A DNA stretch of 64,000 bases, taken from contig JAUNSK010000001.1 in the NCBI GenBank assembly GCA_030539275.1, forward strand, positions 16,788-80,787, read 5' to 3'. Positions 55,538-64,000 of the stretch are shown piece after piece. Under the pieces are notes generated by a model. The model was not told the DNA's origin, did no database searches, and saw only the letters and a program-made list of their open reading frames with translations. Source of the stretch: Oscillospiraceae bacterium. Lineage in GTDB: Bacteria; Bacillota; Clostridia; Oscillospirales; Ruminococcaceae. Each line of letters begins with the position of its first letter. Within the stretch, counting starts at the first letter, position 1. The position numbers and the translations under genes were made by a program.

Positions 55538-55566
55538 TTGATTTTATAAACACAAGATAGTATAAT
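55538..55566 (+). promoter_or_regulatory. Promoter and probable DeoR operator of the importer-mtnKA operon
   Basis: TTGATT, 17-base spacer, TATAAT. The string ACAAAAAGTATTGA spanning the -35 box is identical to that at the aldolase promoter (62851). Flanking CAAACAAAAC and GAACAAACAAAA strings resemble DeoR-family half-sites. Confidence 0.72.
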
Positions 55567-55630: not shown

Positions 55631-56740
55631 ATGAAAAAGTTACTCAAATCAGTTCTTGGTATTGCATTGATCACTTCACTACTGACAGGATGCGGAGCTT
55701 CTGCTTCATCAGGTACATCAGGATCAGGTTCAGCGTCAAACAGCAATGCAACAAAGATCGCTGTTGTAAGAAACCTTGCAAGCGGAGACCACACACAGCA
55801 GTTCCTCGCAGGATGCGTTGAAGAAGGTCAGAAGTTCGGATATCAGGTTGACACATTCGTTACTGACGGTGATGATGCAAAGTGTCAGGAAACAGTTTCA
55901 CAGGTTATCTCACAGAACTATGCAGGAATCATCGTTTCACACGGTCAGCTCTCATATTCCTATGATATGCTCAAGCCTGCTGCAGACAAGGGAATGAAGA
56001 TCGTAACATTTGATACAATGCCTTATGAAGGCGGCGATGCCAACGGCAAGCTTCTTGAAGGTGTTACTTCAACAGCTCAGAACGACCAGGCTCTTGCAGA
56101 TCTTTCATTAGGTTACATGATGGAAGAGTTCGAGGCAAACGGCGGTACATACCCGATCAAGGTTTTAAAGACTTTCATGGGCCCTGGAGTTCCTCCTCTC
56201 GACAGAAGAAATGAAATATATACACAGCTTGAACAGGAAGGCAAGATCCAGACGGTTCAGACAATAGCTCCTTCTGACATGGCTAACGTACGCGGCGATA
56301 TGACTACAAAGACAGAAGCTATTCTTCCTACACTCGGCGAAGGAACAATAGATGCTATCTGGGGCTGCTATGATGAACTTGCCAAGGGTGTTCTTCAGGC
56401 ACTCAACGATGCAGGAAGAAATGACATTCCGATGTACACAATAGATATTTCAAATGATGACATTCAGCAGATGGTTAAGAATCCTGAAGTATGGAAATCA
56501 GCAGCAGCAGTTGATCCTAAGCTTATCGGTACAGTTAATATGAGACTTATCGCTCTTAAACTTGCTGGTGAAGAAACACCTGAATACTTCAATCTTGCAG
56601 CTAACAATATAGTAACAAGCAAACTTAATGCTGATACAACAATGGCTGATCTCGGAACTATAGTAGAGGGCTGGGGAGATGCTACAAGTGTTGAAGGAGC
56701 TCTTTATACAGAAAAGATCAAAAGCCTTTACGTAAAATAA
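55631..56740 (+). CDS. Sugar-binding lipoprotein of a ribose-type ABC importer
   Basis: 369-residue periplasmic-binding-protein-like lipoprotein (RbsB/peripla_BP_4 family). Lipobox LTGC near residue 19, a Ser/Gly-rich linker, then the two-lobed sugar-binding fold, with ITVVRNLASGDHTQQFLAGC-like first lobe start, NYAGIIVSHGQ (~98-108), VTFDTMPYEGG and IWGCYDELAKGVLQAL (~243-258). The ATG at 55631 has GGAG upstream. Because mtnK and mtnA follow in the same direction, the cargo is probably 5-methylthioribose, 5-deoxyribose or a related sugar. Specificity is inferred. Confidence 0.85.
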   Translation: MKKLLKSVLGIALITSLLTGCGASASSGTSGSGSASNSNATKIAVVRNLASGDHTQQFLAGCVEEGQKFGYQVDTFVTDGDDAKCQETVSQVISQNYAGIIVSHGQLSYSYDMLKPAADKGMKIVTFDTMPYEGGDANGKLLEGVTSTAQNDQALADLSLGYMMEEFEANGGTYPIKVLKTFMGPGVPPLDRRNEIYTQLEQEGKIQTVQTIAPSDMANVRGDMTTKTEAILPTLGEGTIDAIWGCYDELAKGVLQALNDAGRNDIPMYTIDISNDDIQQMVKNPEVWKSAAAVDPKLIGTVNMRLIALKLAGEETPEYFNLAANNIVTSKLNADTTMADLGTIVEGWGDATSVEGALYTEKIKSLYVK

Positions 56741-56764
56741 TTAAAAGAAACCCGGGGTGATACC

Positions 56765-58273
56765 ATGAAAAACAGTAAGCTTGAAATGAAAAATATCTCC
56801 ATTGAGTTTCCCGGCGTTAAAGCTCTGGACGGAGTAGATTTCAGTCTCACATGCTCGTCTTCTCATGCACTCATCGGCGCAAACGGTGCCGGCAAGTCGA
56901 CCTTGATGAAGGTCCTCGCCGGTGCGCATGCGCACTATACAGGTGAGATACTAATAGACGGCAAACCAGTAACTATACGTTCTCCAAGGGACGCCAAGAA
57001 TCTTGGTATTGAAATAGTGTACCAGGAGGTCGATACAGCAATCATTCCTTATCTTACAGTAGCTGAAAACGTTATGTTCAATTCTATTGTAAACGGAATG
57101 GGGAAAAAGCAGTTTATAAACTGGTCAAAGATCAAATCATCCGCTAAGGATATACTTAAAAAATTGGGTGTTGACGTTGATATAAATATGCTGGCATCTG
57201 ATCTTACACTTGCTCAGAAGCAGATGGTGCTGATTGCACGCTGCGTAGTTGAAAAGTGCAGATTTTTGATCCTTGACGAGCCTACAGCACCTTTGTCAAA
57301 CTCAGAAACTCAGGAGCTTTTCAGAGTTGTACGTGACCTTCAGAAATCCGGAGTAGGAATAGTATTTATTTCACACAGAATAAATGAGCTCTTCGAAATT
57401 TGTGAAGTTATTACAGTAATGAAGGACGGAAAGCTTGTTACAAGTCTTCCTATAAATGAAGAACTTCAGCAGAATACTATAGTAGAGCTTATGCTCGGCA
57501 AAAAATTCGATGATGTATATGATAAGAAAGTATGTAAGATCGGAGATAACCTTCTGTCTATCGAACATCTTACCGAAAAGGAAAACAAGATCAAGGATAT
57601 CTGCATGCATGTAGCCAAGGGCGAGATCGTCGGTGTAGCAGGACTTGTAGGTGCAGGAAAAACTGAACTCTGCAAGACTATGTTCGGTGCATATTCTCAT
57701 ACAGGATCAATAAAGGTAAACGGAAAACAGGTAAACAACAAGACAAGTGAAAAGGCTGTTAAGAACGGATTTGCTCTTGTACCTGAAGAACGACGCAAGG
57801 AAGGCGTTCTTATTACTGACCCTGTTTACAGCAATATCTCTATTGCATCTATCAATAAGTATACAAATTTCCTTAAAGTAGTTAATAAGAAAAAAGAAAA
57901 GCAGGATGCTATTGCAATGATTAAGGAACTTGGAATCAAGACTCCCAGTGAAAATCAGTCAGTTGCACTGCTGTCAGGCGGAAATCAGCAGAAGGTCGTT
58001 GTTGCCAAGTGGCTGAGTTCTGATGCTGAGATCTATATTCTTGATGAACCTACAAAGGGAATAGATGTAGGAGCTAAGCGCGACATGTACGAGCTTATTG
58101 AAAAGCTTGCAGCACAGGGCAAGGGAATTGTCTATGCAACCTGTGAATTCAATGAGATCCTTAGTATCTGTGACAGAGTATACGTTATGTATGACGGACA
58201 GATAGTTAAGGAACTTACAGTTAAGGATACGGACGAAAAGGAATTATTATATTACTCTACAGGAGGCAAATAA
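56765..58273 (+). CDS. Double-module ATPase of the ribose-type ABC importer
   Basis: 502-residue RbsA/MglA-type ATPase with two nucleotide-binding modules. First: Walker A GANGAGKSTLMK (~39-50), signature region LTLAQKQMVLIARCV, Walker B FLILDEPTAPLS. Second: GLVGAGKTELCK (~293-304), signature LLSGGNQQKVVVAKWL (~400-415), Walker B YILDEPTKGID. It energises import of the sugar caught by the upstream lipoprotein. GGGGTGA site before the ATG; 24 bases from the binding-protein stop. Confidence 0.93.
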   Translation: MKNSKLEMKNISIEFPGVKALDGVDFSLTCSSSHALIGANGAGKSTLMKVLAGAHAHYTGEILIDGKPVTIRSPRDAKNLGIEIVYQEVDTAIIPYLTVAENVMFNSIVNGMGKKQFINWSKIKSSAKDILKKLGVDVDINMLASDLTLAQKQMVLIARCVVEKCRFLILDEPTAPLSNSETQELFRVVRDLQKSGVGIVFISHRINELFEICEVITVMKDGKLVTSLPINEELQQNTIVELMLGKKFDDVYDKKVCKIGDNLLSIEHLTEKENKIKDICMHVAKGEIVGVAGLVGAGKTELCKTMFGAYSHTGSIKVNGKQVNNKTSEKAVKNGFALVPEERRKEGVLITDPVYSNISIASINKYTNFLKVVNKKKEKQDAIAMIKELGIKTPSENQSVALLSGGNQQKVVVAKWLSSDAEIYILDEPTKGIDVGAKRDMYELIEKLAAQGKGIVYATCEFNEILSICDRVYVMYDGQIVKELTVKDTDEKELLYYSTGGK

Positions 58274-58274
58274 A

Positions 58275-59279
58275 ATGGGCACAGCACAGGCTAAAAAGAA
58301 GTTTGTACTGACTGACTTCGTTACAAAATGGGGTACAGTACTTACTATATTCATATTACTTATATTCTTTACTTTTGCAAACTGGAACAATGATACTAAC
58401 TCAAGTATGTTCCTTACTTCATCAAATATCATCGCAGTACTCAGATCAGTTTCTATTACTGCAATCATAGCTATCGGTCTTACATTCTCACTTGCTGTAA
58501 ACGGTATGGACCTTGCAGTTGGTGCATGTGCAAACTTTGCTGATACATTTATCATGACAATGTTTGTATGGTACGGAATGAGCATGGGACTTTCAATTAT
58601 TGCAACAATAGTTGTATGTCTTACAGTAGCACTTATTAACTCAATTCTTATAGTTAAACTTAAGATTCCTGATATGGTTGCCGCTCTTGCAGTTATGTTT
58701 ATGTTCCAGGGTGTATCTCTTACATATTCAAACGGCGGTGCTATCACTGAAAGAATGACTCGTCCTGACGGTTCACCTGCAGAAGGACTTCTCCCTGCAG
58801 CATTCAGAAGTCTTGGTTCACAGCCATGGATCATTATCATCATGCTCGTTGTAGTTGCATTTGCACACTTCTTCTTAAACTACACAAAGCACGGCAGATA
58901 CATGTATTCAGTTGGCGGAAACCCGACAGCAGCTCAGCTTTCAGGTATCTCAGTTGCTAAGTACAAGGTACTTGCATACTTCCTCTCTTCAGCATTTGCA
59001 GCACTCGGCGGTATCTGTCTTGCAGCCAGAGTTGGTACAGCACAGGTTAGTGCCGGTGACGCATATCTTATGCCGGCAGTTGCAGCAGCTTACATAGGCT
59101 TCTCAGTAATGGGTGCAGGTAAGGCAAACGCGATCGGTACACTTATAGGTGCTGTAATGGTAGGTCTTCTTGAAAACGGTCTTATCATGATGGCTGTTCC
59201 TTACTATGCTATGAACATTGTTAAGGGTGCGGTTCTTGCTATAGCTCTTGCTATGACATACTACACAAAGAAGAAGTAA
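58275..59279 (+). CDS. Permease of the ribose-type ABC importer
   Basis: 334-residue RbsC-type permease with eight or more transmembrane helices. Family marks: AIGLTFSLAVNGMDLAVGA (~70-88), a conserved GGNPTAAQLSGI (~213-224) and the C-terminal VMGAGKANAIGTLIGAVMVG. The start lies one base after the ATPase stop. It completes a three-part importer. Confidence 0.93.
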   Translation: MGTAQAKKKFVLTDFVTKWGTVLTIFILLIFFTFANWNNDTNSSMFLTSSNIIAVLRSVSITAIIAIGLTFSLAVNGMDLAVGACANFADTFIMTMFVWYGMSMGLSIIATIVVCLTVALINSILIVKLKIPDMVAALAVMFMFQGVSLTYSNGGAITERMTRPDGSPAEGLLPAAFRSLGSQPWIIIIMLVVVAFAHFFLNYTKHGRYMYSVGGNPTAAQLSGISVAKYKVLAYFLSSAFAALGGICLAARVGTAQVSAGDAYLMPAVAAAYIGFSVMGAGKANAIGTLIGAVMVGLLENGLIMMAVPYYAMNIVKGAVLAIALAMTYYTKKK

Positions 59280-59340
59280 ATAAATTTTTTAAGAGTTTCC
59301 AAAATTATATCCTATTTTCCTAAAATAAAAGAAGGCAGGG

Positions 59341-59403
59341 TCCTCACTCTGCGAAGTGAGGACAGGGCTTTCCGGTCGCCCTGCACCTTCGGATAATGAT
59401 CCG
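59341..59403. repeat. GC-rich palindromic repeat, copy B
   Basis: Three consecutive hairpins between permease and mtnK: TCCTCACT-CTGCGA-AGTGAGGA (59341-59362), CAGGGC-TTTCCGGTC-GCCCTG (59363-59383) and CGGAT-AATG-ATCCG (59390-59403). The second matches copy A in both stem and loop. No T-run follows, so it is more likely an RNA-stabilising or attenuating element than a full terminator. Confidence 0.65.
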
Positions 59404-59454
59404 GAGATATAAGAAAATAACTATACTATTATAATAGATAAAGGAGCATTTAAT

Positions 59455-60678
59455 ATGTCACGTTACGATAATTATTTTTTAATGAAAACGCAGGAAGTTG
59501 CTGATTACGTTCAGGAAAAGTTAAGCTTTTTCCCTGAAGACCATGAACTCGTATGCTCTGAGATCGGCGACGGAAACTTAAACTATGTATTCAGAGTAAA
59601 GGATACACAGACAGGTAAGACTATCATTGTTAAGCAGGCAGGCGAATCGCTTCGTATTTCTGAGGAAATGAAGCTTTCAACTGACCGCGGCAGAATCGAA
59701 GCTGAGATCCTTGGCCTCCAGGGTAAGCTTGCACCTGGTCTTGTTCCTGAAGTTTATCTCTATGACAGCGTTATGTGCTGCATGCTTATGCAGGATATGA
59801 CTGGTCACTACATGATGAGAAGCGCACTTCTTGATCATAAGACTTTCCCTAAGTTTGCAGATCACATCTCAACATTCCTTGTAAACTCACTTCTCAAAAC
59901 TACTGACGTAGTTATGGATCATAAGGACAAGAAGGAAAATGTTAAGAAGTTCATCAATCCTGATCTTTGTGAAATATCTGAAAACCTTGTATTCAGTGAA
60001 CCTTTTATTGACTACAACAACCGCAACAATGTTTTCGCACCAATTGCTGACTTTGTTGAAAAGGAACTTTACAATGACAAGGCACTTCACCTTGAAGCAG
60101 CTAAGTGCAAGTTCAGCTTTATGAACAACGCACAGTCACTCGTTCACGGAGACCTTCATACAGGTTCTATCTTCATTAACGAAGAGCACACATATGTATT
60201 TGATCCTGAGTTCGCATTCTACGGACCAATGGGCTATGATATCGGCAACGTTATAGGCAACATGTTCTTTGCATGGTGCAATGGTGATGCTGTGATCGAA
60301 GATGAGGCTAAGAAGGCTGAATTCTGCAGCTGGGTAATTGAAACAAACAAGAACATAATTGATATGTTCATTGAAAAGTTCAAGGCTTGCTTCAATGAAA
60401 GTGTTACAGACACTATGGCAAAGAGTGAAGGCTTCCTTGACTGGTACCTCGGTACAGTACTTGCTGATACTGCAGCTATTGCAGGTCTTGAAATGATCAG
60501 AAGAACTGTAGGTATGGCAAATGTAAAGGATCTTACAACGATTGCAGACGAAGCAAAGCGTGCAAGAGCTGAAAAGATAGTTATCACATTTGCAAAGAAC
60601 GCTGTTATGAACAGAGAAAGCTTTGTAAACGGCGATGCATTTGTAAATGCATTTATGGATGCAGTTAATAAGTTTTAA
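59455..60678 (+). CDS. mtnK: S-methyl-5-thioribose kinase
   Basis: 407-residue kinase of the choline-kinase-like fold that phosphorylates C1 of 5-methylthioribose (some members also 5-deoxyribose). Motifs: EIGDGNLNYVFRV (glycine-rich loop, ~39-51), TIIVKQAGESLRIS (~58-71), Brenner-type HGDLHTGSIFI (~232-242) and FDPEFAFYGPMGYDIGN (~250-266). Length fits MtnK (about 400). It follows the importer genes, separated by repeat copy B, and precedes mtnA. The order importer-kinase-isomerase supports uptake and activation of a 5-substituted ribose. Confidence 0.93.
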   Translation: MSRYDNYFLMKTQEVADYVQEKLSFFPEDHELVCSEIGDGNLNYVFRVKDTQTGKTIIVKQAGESLRISEEMKLSTDRGRIEAEILGLQGKLAPGLVPEVYLYDSVMCCMLMQDMTGHYMMRSALLDHKTFPKFADHISTFLVNSLLKTTDVVMDHKDKKENVKKFINPDLCEISENLVFSEPFIDYNNRNNVFAPIADFVEKELYNDKALHLEAAKCKFSFMNNAQSLVHGDLHTGSIFINEEHTYVFDPEFAFYGPMGYDIGNVIGNMFFAWCNGDAVIEDEAKKAEFCSWVIETNKNIIDMFIEKFKACFNESVTDTMAKSEGFLDWYLGTVLADTAAIAGLEMIRRTVGMANVKDLTTIADEAKRARAEKIVITFAKNAVMNRESFVNGDAFVNAFMDAVNKF

Positions 60679-60706
60679 TTATCCCGACAAATAGTATTTC
60701 TGCAAA

Positions 60707-60781
60707 GTTCCGGCTCTGCAAAGCCGGAACCCCTGTGAACAGAATAAATTCTGCAAAGCCCGGCCGCCTCCGCAGAGGCGG
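60707..60781. repeat. GC-rich palindromic repeat, copy C
   Basis: Two hairpins between mtnK and mtnA: GTTCCGGCT-CTGCAA-AGCCGGAAC (60707-60730) and CCGCCTC-CGCA-GAGGCGG (60764-60781), with CTGCAAAGCCCGGCC between them. The CTGCRA loop matches copies A and B. Confidence 0.65.
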
Positions 60782-60821
60782 AATCCCCGCTAACAAAAAA
60801 TAATCTTAAGGAGTAATATAC

Positions 60822-61922
60822 ATGTCAGAAACAAAAAAATCAATTCTTGATTATGAGACAGTCGCTCTTGATGATGAAAAAAGCGCCCTTGTTATCATTG
60901 ATCAGACTAAACTTCCATACGATATCGAAATTCTTTCACTTACAAAGCAGAAGGAGATCTGGAATGCAATTTATCTTCTTCAGGTCAGAGGGGCTCCGGC
61001 TATCGGCGTTGCTGCAGCAATAGGAATCTATCTCGCAGCAAAGGAAATCGAAGCTGATACTTCTGAAGAATTCTATGATAAATTCAAGGCTGCAAAGGAA
61101 TATCTTGCATCATCAAGACCAACAGCTGTAAACCTGTTCTGGGCTCTTAACAGAATGGATGACTGCTGCAGGGCAAACCTTGACAAGACACCATCAGAGA
61201 TCAAGAAGATCCTTCATGACGAAGCAGTTGCTATCCATGATGAAGACGTATGGGTATGCAAGCAGATCGGTCAGTACGGCCTTTCACTTGTAAAGCCTGG
61301 CGACGGCCTTCTCACACACTGCAATGCCGGTAAGCTTGCAACAGTTAAGTACGGTACAGCTACAGCTCCGATGTATCTTGGTCAGGAGCAGGGCTATAAC
61401 TTCAGAATATTTGCTGATGAAACAAGACCGCTTCTTCAGGGCGCAAGACTTACAGCATTTGAGCTTCATGAGTCAGGACTTGACGTTACACTTATCTGTG
61501 ACAACATGTCTGCATCTGTTATGAAAAAGGGACTTGTAAACGCAGTATTTGTCGGATGCGACCGCGTTGCAGCAAACGGCGATACAGCTAACAAGGTTGG
61601 AACAAGCCTCGTTGCTACAGTAGCTAAGCGTTATAATGTTCCTGTATATATCTGTGCACCTACATCAACAATAGATCTTAATACTCCTACAGGCGACGAT
61701 ATACATATCGAAGAAAGACCTGCAGAGGAAATAACAGAGATGTGGTATAAGGAACGTATGGCACCGGATGGAGTTAAGGTATTCAATCCATGCTTTGACG
61801 TAACTGACAATGACCTCATTGCAGGTATTATAACTGAATATGGTATTGCACGTCCTCCGTTTGCGCAGTCACTTAAAGAGATATTCGAAAAGAAGAAAGC
61901 ACATAAAGACAGTAATAAGTAA
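60822..61922 (+). CDS. mtnA: S-methyl-5-thioribose-1-phosphate isomerase
   Basis: 366-residue aldose-ketose isomerase that turns 5-methylthioribose-1-phosphate into 5-methylthioribulose-1-phosphate. Motifs: QVRGAPAIGVAAAIGIYLA (~49-67), the catalytic Cys167 in LTHCNAGKLAT and Asp247 in VGCDRVAANGDTANKVGT. The C-terminus has IDLNTPTGDDIHIEERP, typical of MtnA rather than the related eIF2B subunits. It is the last gene of the importer-mtnK-mtnA unit, ending at a hairpin. Confidence 0.95.
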   Translation: MSETKKSILDYETVALDDEKSALVIIDQTKLPYDIEILSLTKQKEIWNAIYLLQVRGAPAIGVAAAIGIYLAAKEIEADTSEEFYDKFKAAKEYLASSRPTAVNLFWALNRMDDCCRANLDKTPSEIKKILHDEAVAIHDEDVWVCKQIGQYGLSLVKPGDGLLTHCNAGKLATVKYGTATAPMYLGQEQGYNFRIFADETRPLLQGARLTAFELHESGLDVTLICDNMSASVMKKGLVNAVFVGCDRVAANGDTANKVGTSLVATVAKRYNVPVYICAPTSTIDLNTPTGDDIHIEERPAEEITEMWYKERMAPDGVKVFNPCFDVTDNDLIAGIITEYGIARPPFAQSLKEIFEKKKAHKDSNK

Positions 61923-61927
61923 ACAAA

Positions 61928-61961
61928 AAACAGGGAACAGCATGTGAGTTGTTCCCTGTTT
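61928..61961. terminator. Bidirectional terminator between mtnA and the DeoR gene
   Basis: 12-bp stem (61928-61939 with 61950-61961) with T-rich stretches on both strands, between convergent genes. Confidence 0.85.
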
Positions 61962-61970
61962 ATTTGATTA

Positions 61971-62729
61971 TCAGCAGTGTATATACTGTGTAGATATGCT
62001 GTCCAGATATTCCTGCCACTGTCTGTCAAGAGTTTTGTCAGTAACGATTCCTTTCATATCACTGATGTCGCATATTTTGATAAATGAAGTTTTATCGAAC
62101 TTTGAGTAATCTGCTACGAAGTATGGTTCATTGCAGCGGTTTATAACTGCTTTTCTGATAACAGCGAGATCTTCACATGAATCGGTTATGCCGTTTTCCA
62201 TTGAGAGTGTACGTGCAGAGATAAACGCTTTGTCTACATAAAGATTTCTGATCTGTTCAAATGTCATATTTCCGAGAAAAGCCTGATGAAGGGAACTGTA
62301 TGTTCCTCCGATGCCTACAAGCTTTATGTTTTCATACTTTACGAGCTGGTTTGCGATAAGTACAGAATTTGTAACTACGGTAAGTTTAAGATTTATTATT
62401 TCTTTTGCGATAAAGCTTGCTGTCGTCGACGGATCCAGAAAAATGGAATCACCGTTATTTATGAGCTTAGCGCAGCATTTTGCAATAATCGCTTTTGAGT
62501 CTGTGTATGAGACCTGGCGCAGTGAAATATCAACATGATTTTCGACTCCTGACTGAATGAATGCACCGCCGTAAGCGCGTGTCAGAAATCCTTCGTCTTC
62601 GAGTGCTTTGAAATCACGTCTGATGGTTTCTTCTGTTACTGAGAACATCTTTGCAATTTCAGATACAGTAATGCTTTTCTTTTCGTTGAGTATTTCTTTG
62701 ATCTGATTTTTTCTGGTGACTGCTAACAT
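61971..62729 (-). CDS. DeoR-family transcriptional regulator
   Basis: 252-residue regulator. N-terminal DeoR helix-turn-helix (NQIKEILNEKKSITVSEIAK, FSVTEETIRRDFKALEDEG) and a DeoRC sugar-phosphate-sensing domain (~75-235; SIFLDPSTTASFIAKEI, KLVGIGGTYSSLHQAFLG, FVADYSKFDKTSFIKI). It lies between the importer-mtnKA unit and the aldolase gene, divergent from the latter, so it most likely represses both and responds to a phosphorylated intermediate. Candidate sites are the repeats at 62816-62829 and 62856-62869. Confidence 0.9.
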   Translation of the reverse strand: MLAVTRKNQIKEILNEKKSITVSEIAKMFSVTEETIRRDFKALEDEGFLTRAYGGAFIQSGVENHVDISLRQVSYTDSKAIIAKCCAKLINNGDSIFLDPSTTASFIAKEIINLKLTVVTNSVLIANQLVKYENIKLVGIGGTYSSLHQAFLGNMTFEQIRNLYVDKAFISARTLSMENGITDSCEDLAVIRKAVINRCNEPYFVADYSKFDKTSFIKICDISDMKGIVTDKTLDRQWQEYLDSISTQYIHC

Positions 62730-62815
62730 ATTTGGACCTCCGTTTTGAATTAATTATATTTATTATACACTATACACCAACAAACGTCAACATTGATATG
62801 TACAAAATGCCGCGA

Positions 62816-62829
62816 AAACAAACAAAAAC
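62816..62829 (+). promoter_or_regulatory. Candidate DeoR operator, copy 1
   Basis: AAACAAACAAAAAC, repeated exactly 40 bases downstream (62856-62869) within the aldolase promoter. A spacing of about four helical turns would place two bound proteins on the same face of DNA. DeoR-family proteins in Firmicutes commonly bind A-rich repeats of this kind (family knowledge). Confidence 0.55.
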
Positions 62830-62850
62830 AAAAAAATATCACAAAAAGTA

Positions 62851-62879
62851 TTGACAAACAAACAAAAACGGTCTAAAAT
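62851..62879 (+). promoter_or_regulatory. Promoter of the aldolase/aldehyde dehydrogenase operon, with operator copy 2
   Basis: TTGACA, 17-base spacer, TAAAAT. The second AAACAAACAAAAAC copy (62856-62869) fills the spacer between -35 and -10, where bound repressor would block RNA polymerase. The string ACAAAAAGTATTGA is shared with the promoter at 55538. Confidence 0.75.
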
Positions 62880-62900
62880 AAACATAAAGAGGTGAGTCTA

Positions 62901-63800
62901 ATGATTACAATTAAAGGTGTTCAGTATATGTCAGACTTTGAAGCAAAAAATGCAATACTGGATATTGGTAAGAGAATGTATGCTAAAGGCTTCGTTGCTG
63001 CAAATGACGGCAATATAAGCTGCAAGGCCGGTCCTGATACGATATGGACCACATGTACAAATGTTTCAAAAGGATTTATGACTCAGGATATGCTCGTTAA
63101 GATGACTCTTGACGGAAAGATCCTTATGGGAAGCCGCAAGCCTTCTTCAGAAGTAAAAATGCATATCAGAGTATATAACGAAAATCCTGATGTAATGGCA
63201 GTAACACACGCTCATCCTCCTGTTGCAACATCATTTGCAATAGCAGGAGTTGATCTTGACAAAGCGATCCTTCCTGAAGCTGTAGTACAGCTCGGAACAG
63301 TACCTGTTGCACAGTATGCAACACCGAGTACACAGGAAGTTCCTGATTCAATAGCTCCTTACTGCAAGGACTATAACGGAGTTCTTCTTGCAAATCACGG
63401 TGCTCTTACCTGGGGCAAGGACGTTTATCAGGCTTATCACAGACTTGAGTCTGTTGAGTATTATGCAACAGTGCTTATGTACACAGGAAACATAATATGC
63501 AAGCAGAATGAACTTTCAAAAGCACAGGTTGATGCACTTATCGATATAAGAAAAAAAATAGGCATTACTACAGGCGGCATGCCGGTGCTCACACAGCAGC
63601 ACAGTAATTACAATACAGCACCAGCAATACAAACAACACAAAACAACATTCCTGATACTTCTTCACTCAATGGTGTTACGTCAATCGTAAGACCGTCAGA
63701 CAACATAAACGGCATGGCTGGCGCTTCAATGACGTCAGGCAAGTCAAAGTCAGATATGATCGAAGAGATCGTTAGAAGAGTTGTAACACAGATTAAGTAA
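62901..63800 (+). CDS. Class II aldolase (fuculose-phosphate aldolase family) with C-terminal encapsulation-type tail
   Basis: 299-residue zinc aldolase of the AraD/FucA class. Core residues ~10-220: NDGNIS (phosphate loop), SSEVKMH (catalytic Glu), THAHPPVAT (HxH metal ligands) and LANHGALTWG (third His). A Ser/Asn/Thr/Gln-rich linker (~225-280) leads to a C-terminal amphipathic helix (SDMIEEIVRRVVTQIK) that looks like a microcompartment encapsulation peptide. With MtnK and MtnA it would split 5-methylthioribulose-1-phosphate or 5-deoxyribulose-1-phosphate into dihydroxyacetone phosphate and an aldehyde. Fuculose or rhamnulose phosphate are alternatives. Start: ATG at 62901 with GAGGTG. Confidence 0.85.
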   Translation: MITIKGVQYMSDFEAKNAILDIGKRMYAKGFVAANDGNISCKAGPDTIWTTCTNVSKGFMTQDMLVKMTLDGKILMGSRKPSSEVKMHIRVYNENPDVMAVTHAHPPVATSFAIAGVDLDKAILPEAVVQLGTVPVAQYATPSTQEVPDSIAPYCKDYNGVLLANHGALTWGKDVYQAYHRLESVEYYATVLMYTGNIICKQNELSKAQVDALIDIRKKIGITTGGMPVLTQQHSNYNTAPAIQTTQNNIPDTSSLNGVTSIVRPSDNINGMAGASMTSGKSKSDMIEEIVRRVVTQIK

Positions 63801-63816
63801 AACTTGAGGTGAAATT

Positions 63817-64000
63817 ATGCTCGATACTGAAGATATAGCAAAGATCGTTCAACAGATAGTATCAACAATGGATTTATCAGCACTTGCCAAGGCACAGGCA
63901 CAGCAGCCTGCAGCAAAACCTGCAGCAGCTGTTACTAGTGACAACGGAGTATTCGACAAGGTCGAGGATGCAATAGATGCGGCATACCAGGCACAGAAAT
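63817..64000 (+). CDS. Start of a microcompartment-type aldehyde dehydrogenase (partial)
   Basis: The first 61 codons of a gene cut by the right edge. It begins with an amphipathic helix (LDTEDIAKIVQQIVSTM), a Gln/Pro/Ala-rich linker (~25-42) and then GVFDKVEDAIDAAYQAQ, the usual start of CoA-acylating aldehyde dehydrogenases such as PduP and its relatives. The N-terminal helix plus linker is the layout of an encapsulation peptide. TTGAGGTG precedes the ATG, 16 bases after the aldolase stop, so the genes are co-transcribed. It would oxidise the aldehyde made by the aldolase to an acyl-CoA. Assignment rests on a short N-terminal part. Confidence 0.75.
   Translation, partial: MLDTEDIAKIVQQIVSTMDLSALAKAQAQQPAAKPAAAVTSDNGVFDKVEDAIDAAYQAQK

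Follow-up and report, generated by a model that had tools for sequence, protein, structure and literature searches.

The stretch of DNA analyzed here, hereafter called the window, comprises 64,000 nucleotides of an Oscillospiraceae genome assembled in 49 contigs (C3:16788-80787, a C3 position being the window position plus 16787). At its right end lies a locus in which genes for a ribose-type ABC importer, the kinase MtnK, the isomerase MtnA, a DeoR-family regulator, a class II aldolase and a CoA-acylating aldehyde dehydrogenase (AldDH) lead into a set of bacterial microcompartment (BMC) shell genes. From the genes, families, synteny, phylogeny and encapsulation-peptide (EP)-like protein ends observed here, we infer the substrate, encapsulation, flux and regulation of what is probably a DeoR-controlled dihydroxyacetone phosphate (DHAP) shunt whose aldehyde step is encapsulated and which acts on 5-deoxyribose, 5-methylthioribose or both. 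An original prediction, made from the sequence of the window, had combined sugar import, a DHAP shunt and an aldehyde processed inside a shell; shell genes, a conserved gene order and the tree of the aldolase now support this combination, with a predicted substrate and a predicted encapsulation. The genes it named all lie in place, with families assigned through model matches (table 1).

In the proposed pathway, the importer would take up a 5-deoxypentose arising from S-adenosylmethionine use, namely 5-deoxyribose, 5-methylthioribose or both, which MtnK would phosphorylate at C1 and MtnA would isomerise to the 1-phosphoketose. The class II aldolase would then release DHAP together with an aldehyde, which is acetaldehyde for 5-deoxyribose and methylthioacetaldehyde for 5-methylthioribose. 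Terminal helices may bring the aldolase, AldDH and PduL into the shell, within which AldDH and an iron alcohol dehydrogenase (Fe-ADH) would dismutate the aldehyde, recycling NAD and CoA, and PduL would form the acyl-phosphate for ATP.

The shell module and its sibling loci

The shell genes predicted to follow on the right were found in the stretch covering that DNA (L005): four PF00936 matches above cut-off lie at C3:82066-83280, 1.3-2.5 kb past the window end. The phosphotransacylase and alcohol dehydrogenase (ADH) sought in the same direction are there too, as PduL and Fe-ADH. All genes from AldDH through Fe-ADH run in one direction, after which the strand switches to minus-strand open reading frames (ORFs), one of them LysR-like by eye. 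For the shell, the locus encodes four BMC proteins of one domain each and a single BMC-P, no two-domain BMC-T gene being seen there, and the metabolosome core is complete, with an acylating AldDH and PduL above cut-off and an ADH of the Fe-ADH family. Neither a glycyl radical enzyme nor a diol dehydratase is present in the locus, where the largest ORF from importer to ADH does not exceed 502 aa. A run of 10 N (L005:11256-11265) marks an assembly gap in the first BMC gene, which is not readable whole in this assembly.

We scanned a collection of 84,980 species with six short aldolase peptides, a query that detects close relatives only and does not select for MtnK. Eight loci were obtained, namely six siblings (L008, L009, L010, L011, L013 and L014), the remote L015 and L012, in which mtnA and the aldolase are followed by no shell genes before the contig end. 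The gene order that the original prediction proposed to look for elsewhere recurs almost unchanged in three other species, starting with the importer and reaching ADH in two of them and the third BMC gene in the other. Thus L009 (Proteocatella sphenisci) and L013 share the order solute-binding protein (SBP), ATPase, permease, MtnK, MtnA, aldolase, AldDH, four BMC, PduL, BMC-P, a leaderless solute-binding protein (cSBP), a CoA-disulfide-reductase-like flavoprotein (CoADR), two CoA-transferase subunits (CtA and CtB) and ADH, and L011 follows it up to the third BMC gene, where its contig ends. Compared with L009 and L013, the window locus has deoR inserted and lacks CoADR-CtA-CtB between cSBP and ADH; these three genes precede ADH in L008, L009 (15821-18818), L013 and L014. 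The loci L008, L010 and L014 hold the aldolase-shell half, with importer, MtnK or MtnA parts on other contigs: in the genome of L008, SBP, ATPase and permease precede a contig end inside mtnK (L157); in that of L010, a contig starts inside mtnK and continues with mtnA and about 4 kb without locus genes (L158); and in that of L014, the end of the ATPase is followed by permease, mtnK and the start of mtnA (L154). MtnK is present in all six sibling genomes, beside importer genes or MtnA, five times above the cut-off and once, owing to truncation of the gene at a contig end, below it.

A diol dehydratase (PF02286) is absent from six of the seven genomes, own included, and the match in the seventh (G449) lies on another contig, which makes direct use of the aldehyde probable. 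In L008, a DhaK-type protein (PF02733, 10211-11227) directly follows ADH at the contig end.

Table 1. Features of the locus in window coordinates; positions past 64000 are extrapolated window positions read from L005.
Feature	Position	Strand	Remarks
Promoter-like site before importer	55538..55566	+	TTGATT-17-TATAAT; 10 of 12; one of five at that score
SBP, solute-binding lipoprotein of ribose-type ABC importer	55631..56740	+	ATG start, lipobox-like LLTGC
Importer ATPase	56765..58273	+	two ABC stretches; PF00005
Importer permease	58275..59279	+	PF02653, 133 bits
mtnK, 5-methylthioribose kinase family	59455..60678	+	TIGR01767 417.8 bits, cut-off 275
mtnA, 5-methylthioribose-1-phosphate isomerase family	60822..61922	+	TIGR00512 406.8 bits, cut-off 279
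Terminator-like hairpin, mtnA/deoR gap	61928..61961		14 pairs
deoR, DeoR-family regulator	61971..62729	-	best NCBIfam matches GlpR_Halo and AgaR, every one below cut-off
Promoter-like site before deoR	62790-62762	-	11 of 12
Promoter-like site before aldolase	62851..62879	+	TTGACA-17-TAAAAT; 11 of 12
Class II aldolase	62928..63800 (alternative start GTG 62892)	+	PF00596, E 1.4e-46
AldDH, start	63817..64000	+	NF011927 625 bits, cut-off 403, scored on whole gene in L005
AldDH, end	65256	+	NF011927; N-terminal EP-like helix
BMC1	from 65276	+	PF00936; interrupted by 10 N
BMC2	65596-65871	+	PF00936
BMC3	65887-66186	+	PF00936
BMC4	66209-66532	+	PF00936
PduL	66548-67219	+	NF011652 above cut-off
BMC-P, EutN/CcmL-type	67216-67470	+	PF03319
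cSBP	67463-68626 (L005:13251-14411)	+	PF01547
Fe-ADH	68657-69817	+	lactaldehyde reductase model best, 401.9 of 523 needed

Specificity of the pairing and affinity of the aldolase

To place the locus among other aldolase loci we used a class sample of 391 genomes, in which the aldolase has a match at E 1e-60 in 84 genomes and at 86 places besides its own. Of these places, all of them fetched, 53 include a shell gene in their stretch and 11 include MtnA or MtnK; no place combines the two, and 22 lack both. MtnK exceeds its cut-off in just 18 of the 391 genomes, own included, and a comparison of the lists by eye finds none of these 18 among the genomes of the 53 other shell-linked loci. Shell and Mtn genes are therefore paired beyond background, although the seven genomes do not count as independent cases. 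The Fisher test (7/7 vs 0/53, p 2.6e-9) does count related genomes as independent; for the seven it scores MtnK at any place in the genome, and for the 53 it scores Mtn genes in the stretch, many of these stretches being cut by contig ends. Among 61 relatives the aldolase has a match at E 1e-40 in 14, own included, and the four places fetched from the other 13 (L148, L149, L150 and L145 in G016, G036, G023 and G025) are none of the window type; in a phylum sample of 398 genomes the own genome is the sole match at E 1e-95.

Among genomes with an Mtn-linked aldolase but no shell beside it, 10 of the 12 searched have no BMC domain, and two have BMC elsewhere (G205 of L068 and G016 of L148). Of 13 additional MtnK stretches from the class, eight contain a class II aldolase relative (28-37% identity) and four a DeoR relative, and in none was a shell gene found with the locus queries; judging from the gene content of these stretches, the shunt without a shell is the common case, and its aldolases would be diverse.

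The residues S73, S74, E75, H94, H96 and H157 of the window aldolase are invariant in its alignment (A1) and are matched in DrdA (6btd) by alignment, even if DrdA is only a remote relative (E 2.1e-19). We built a quick tree of 96 rows cut to 260 residues (98 aldolases minus L015, L104, L113 and L132, plus two PDB fragments) and a careful tree of 86 rows, from which these fragments and eight long rows (L069, L136, L138, L142, L144, L146, L147 and L148) were removed. The careful tree places the window aldolase in a group of 15 rows split from the 71 others at 100/100. This group unites seven shell-bearing rows with eight that adjoin MtnA without a nearby shell, four of them also with MtnK, and the 71 others include GRM5-type loci, as well as loci taken for PVM-like or diol-dehydratase types; the glycyl radical motif RVAGY occurs in 25 fetched class loci.

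These data bear on the view that the locus belongs to the ordinary fucose/rhamnose microcompartments, PVM-like or GRM5-like, with mtnK and mtnA as chance neighbours. Its core order of aldolase, AldDH, BMC, PduL and BMC-P is indeed present in many other class loci, and PVM-like loci are assigned fucose/rhamnose-like substrates (PMC4207490; PMC8156839). We nonetheless consider this view improbable, given the grouping of the aldolase with Mtn-linked ones, the mtnK-mtnA-aldolase order kept in three siblings, the lack of Mtn genes in all 53 other shell-linked stretches and the distribution of PF02286 described above. The tree would also speak against an aldolase limited to fuculose- or rhamnulose-1-phosphate, as would the lack of a glycyl radical enzyme and a diol dehydratase in the locus.

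By sequence, the C-terminus of the window aldolase is an EP-like helix, SDMIEEIVRRVVTQIK, and such tails are found on the aldolases of all seven shell loci. The AldDHs of the same loci have EP-like ends as well (five computed; those of L011 and L013 judged by eye from longer starts), and PduL has a terminal amphipathic helix, also judged by eye. The hydrophobic moment alone is no clean separator, since the shell-linked L086 reaches 0.39 and tail-less rows span 0.20-0.42. EP-like aldolase tails without a neighbouring shell occur in L062-L065 (G193, G298, G257 and G421, genomes in which the BMC domain is absent) and L067 (G131), which suggests that they may be relics of encapsulation after shell loss, another use of the tail being possible. 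The aldolase of L068 has the same tail in the genome with BMC genes elsewhere.

Transcription units and points against the proposal

The original prediction had considered that mtnK and mtnA might be controlled separately from the aldolase. The window seems to bear this out in part, as the aldolase has a promoter-like site of its own and a terminator-like hairpin follows mtnA, but in three sibling species (L009, L011 and L013) the gap between the end of mtnA and the listed aldolase ORF is only 34-46 nt. In the window, deoR intervenes on the opposite strand; its product is 52% identical to the aldolase-adjoining DeoR of L014. The hairpin comes from a scan yielding seven such sites in the region vs 5.2 in shuffles. 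Promoter-like sites overall are not above shuffles in number (29 vs 23.4, sd 4.7), so that placement alone favours those of table 1.

The promoter regions of importer (55528) and aldolase (62841) have in common the 14-mer ACAAAAAGTATTGA, which overlaps both promoter-like sites; a common string of at least 14 nt arose in 11 of 1000 simulations. The word AAACAAA occurs five times in the 198 bases before the aldolase vs 0.73 in simulations (p 0.0005), with p 0.03 before the importer and 0.01 in L014, and ACAAAC gives p 0.004, 0.06 and 0.07, respectively; both words were picked after inspection of the sequence and counted in three regions. No palindromic DeoR operator with 8-base arms and at most one mismatch lies between deoR and the aldolase. 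From the common 14-mer and the AAACAAA words in both regions we infer that a single DeoR regulator may govern the importer and aldolase units, by analogy with MtnR of Escherichia coli, a DeoR-type protein that adjoins the shunt (PMC12632272).

If MtnK and MtnA served methionine salvage or detoxification in the cytosol, the shell would handle an aldehyde of other origin. The two apparent transcription units of the window would fit such a division, as would the placing of the Mtn and aldolase-shell parts on separate contigs in the L010 and L014 genomes; against it stand the short junction in three siblings, the string common to both promoter regions and the EP-tailed aldolase, which is the sole obvious source of aldehyde in the locus. 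We therefore hold it to be unlikely. Family models name no MtnB, MtnW/X, MtnC or MtnD at the locus (no genome-wide search was made), and mtnA is the only TIGR00512 match in the whole genome.

Several observations weigh against the encapsulated shunt proposed here. Given the opposed deoR and the hairpin, the window seems to have mtnA and the aldolase in separate transcription units, and the Mtn and aldolase-shell parts are probably apart in the genome of L010, as in that of L014, whose MtnA and permease are 46% and 41% identical to the window proteins. No characterised DHAP-shunt aldolase is known in the 15-row clade; its function rests, consequently, on gene neighbours, which reduces our confidence in the proposal. 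The seven shell-bearing aldolases do not form one clade, though their monophyly is not rejected (p-AU 0.206). DrdA is a very long branch of uncertain placement in the quick tree, and the shunt aldolases of E. coli and Rhodospirillum rubrum lie outside the sampling. Among 13 Mtn-linked, shell-less aldolases, the quick tree places L142, L144 and L146 outside the clade with the other 74, L148 at its base and L069 inside; these five are the Mtn-linked rows left out of the careful tree. Residues 43-45 of the window aldolase, a stretch that presumably touches the phosphate, read C-T-N (TGT ACA AAT) vs P-T-G in seven aligned relatives, each of the two altered codons needing at least two base changes. 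Finally, the best NCBIfam model for Fe-ADH is lactaldehyde reductase, under its cut-off, and that for the aldolase is a 3-oxo-tetronate 4-phosphate decarboxylase, at 114 bits of the 250 needed.

The latter score, together with 83 of 137 bits for the MtnB model TIGR03328, could point away from an aldolase and towards an MtnB-like methylthioribulose-1-phosphate dehydratase or an OtnC-kind decarboxylase. However, the class II protein is below every curated subfamily cut-off shown, fuculose-aldolase models score similarly (97 and 93 bits), its identity to the aldolases of GRM5-type loci is 41-53%, and the AldDH and PduL downstream require an aldehyde, all of which makes this assignment highly unlikely.

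Binding proteins, known systems and significance

The nearest PDB sequences to the importer SBP are 5ulb (E 1.5e-66) and 4ry8 (E 1.7e-25); the latter, listed as 'Periplasmic binding protein', is the 5-methylthioribose complex of Tlet_1677. The predicted structure of this SBP is poor (mean pLDDT 50.7). That of cSBP (pLDDT 59.9) retrieves with Foldseek many sugar-binding SBPs at TM about 0.4, a result that supports the fold class and gives no ligand. The cSBP gene is found in L008, L009, L013 and the window locus and is absent from L014, while L010 and L011 end before it.

At E 1e-20, cSBP has matches in seven of the 398 phylum genomes, own included, the closest being in G718 (E 1.3e-109, L166:14600-15739) and the remaining five at E 4e-29 to 4e-21 in open frames of 433-446 codons. 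We considered cSBP as a shell-specific part and rejected this, since G718 has no BMC match and its copy is flanked by mtnA and mtnK. There the row reads DeoR, importer, MtnA, cSBP, MtnK, aldehyde:ferredoxin oxidoreductase and class II aldolase (NF006413 above cut-off). The order of this cluster suggests, by analogy, that G718 has the same upstream pathway with other aldehyde handling, which supports an aldehyde product and would tie cSBP to the sugar pathway. The aldehyde:ferredoxin oxidoreductase (L166:17031-18818) takes the place that the shell module has in the window locus. The mtnK and mtnA genes of Pseudothermotoga elfii (RS08685 and RS08690) fall within a tag range described as serving sugar transport and metabolism (PMC10057702).

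It is conceivable, if rather doubtful, that the locus encodes primarily a 5-methylthioribose compartment. The shell would then hold methylthioacetaldehyde, the SBP would bind methylthioribose as 4ry8 presumably does, the CoADR-like enzyme and CoA-transferase of the siblings would handle methylthioacyl-CoA and guard CoA thiols, and cSBP would be a cytosolic carrier or sensor of a pathway intermediate, a role that to our knowledge is not known for its fold.

The broader proposal of an encapsulated shunt for either sugar joins two known elements. The DHAP shunt (DrdK-DrdI-DrdA) of Bacillus thuringiensis, E. coli ATCC 25922 and R. rubrum likewise clusters a kinase, an isomerase and a class II aldolase, and some of its clusters carry sugar transporter genes (PMC6079011; PMC12632272); neither main text contains the word 'microcompartment'. 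PVM-like microcompartments share with our locus a PF00596 aldolase, DeoR, AldDH and BMC-H outnumbering BMC-P (Axen 2014; Sutter 2021). They differ in that the window locus adds importer, MtnK, MtnA and cSBP, its aldolase belongs to a clade other than that of loci taken for PVM-like, and it has Fe-ADH, whereas a core alcohol dehydrogenase appears in only one PVM-like locus among those so described in 2014. GRM5 fucose/rhamnose systems likewise combine an EP-tailed class II aldolase with AldDH, PduL and DeoR but possess a glycyl radical enzyme, which the window locus lacks. In SPU systems too, an aldolase cleaves a sugar phosphate to acetaldehyde ahead of AldDH; however, the enzymes are a PF01791 (DeoC-type) aldolase and a PF02502 (RpiB-type) isomerase, with glyceraldehyde-3-phosphate as product (PMC8217296), in contrast to PF00596 and MtnA here, where the remaining ORFs of the locus are assigned to other families. 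A methylthioribose kinase gene also lies beside BMC genes in cluster 2 of Acetobacterium woodii (pduU-pduV2), which has two BMC genes only and whose kinase is called 'unrelated to BMC function' by the authors (PMC7593272).

The original prediction knew of no well-described microcompartment of this type, and our literature search agrees: no paper joining a DHAP shunt with a shell was found among those listed, in a search that did not extend to most subscription journals or to catalogue supplements, in which this locus may already figure under a type name such as PVM-like. The papers listed appear unrelated or cover one half only, apart from that on A. woodii. Since shunt and class II aldolase shells are each known, and the locus is in its layout one version of the PVM-like, class II aldolase microcompartments, what seems new is a functional variant of aldolase microcompartments, a conclusion that we regard as well supported.

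If correct, this would provide a function for one branch of these microcompartments, to which fucose/rhamnose is assigned elsewhere, and would give microcompartments a part in clearing S-adenosylmethionine and radical-SAM waste. An E. coli equipped with the DHAP shunt was unable to ferment 5-deoxyribose (PMC10986504); a shell with AldDH, PduL and ADH would be a plausible answer to the energy and redox problem of this fermentation. The idea is directly testable, since P. sphenisci DSM 23131 carries the locus from importer to ADH.

A minor feature of the window is a pair of hairpins in the permease/mtnK (59331-59372) and mtnK/mtnA (60714-60788) gaps; their cores follow CTCTGCRAAG, a pattern derived from its own two copies, so that its chance figure is no test, and they are perhaps REP-like elements.

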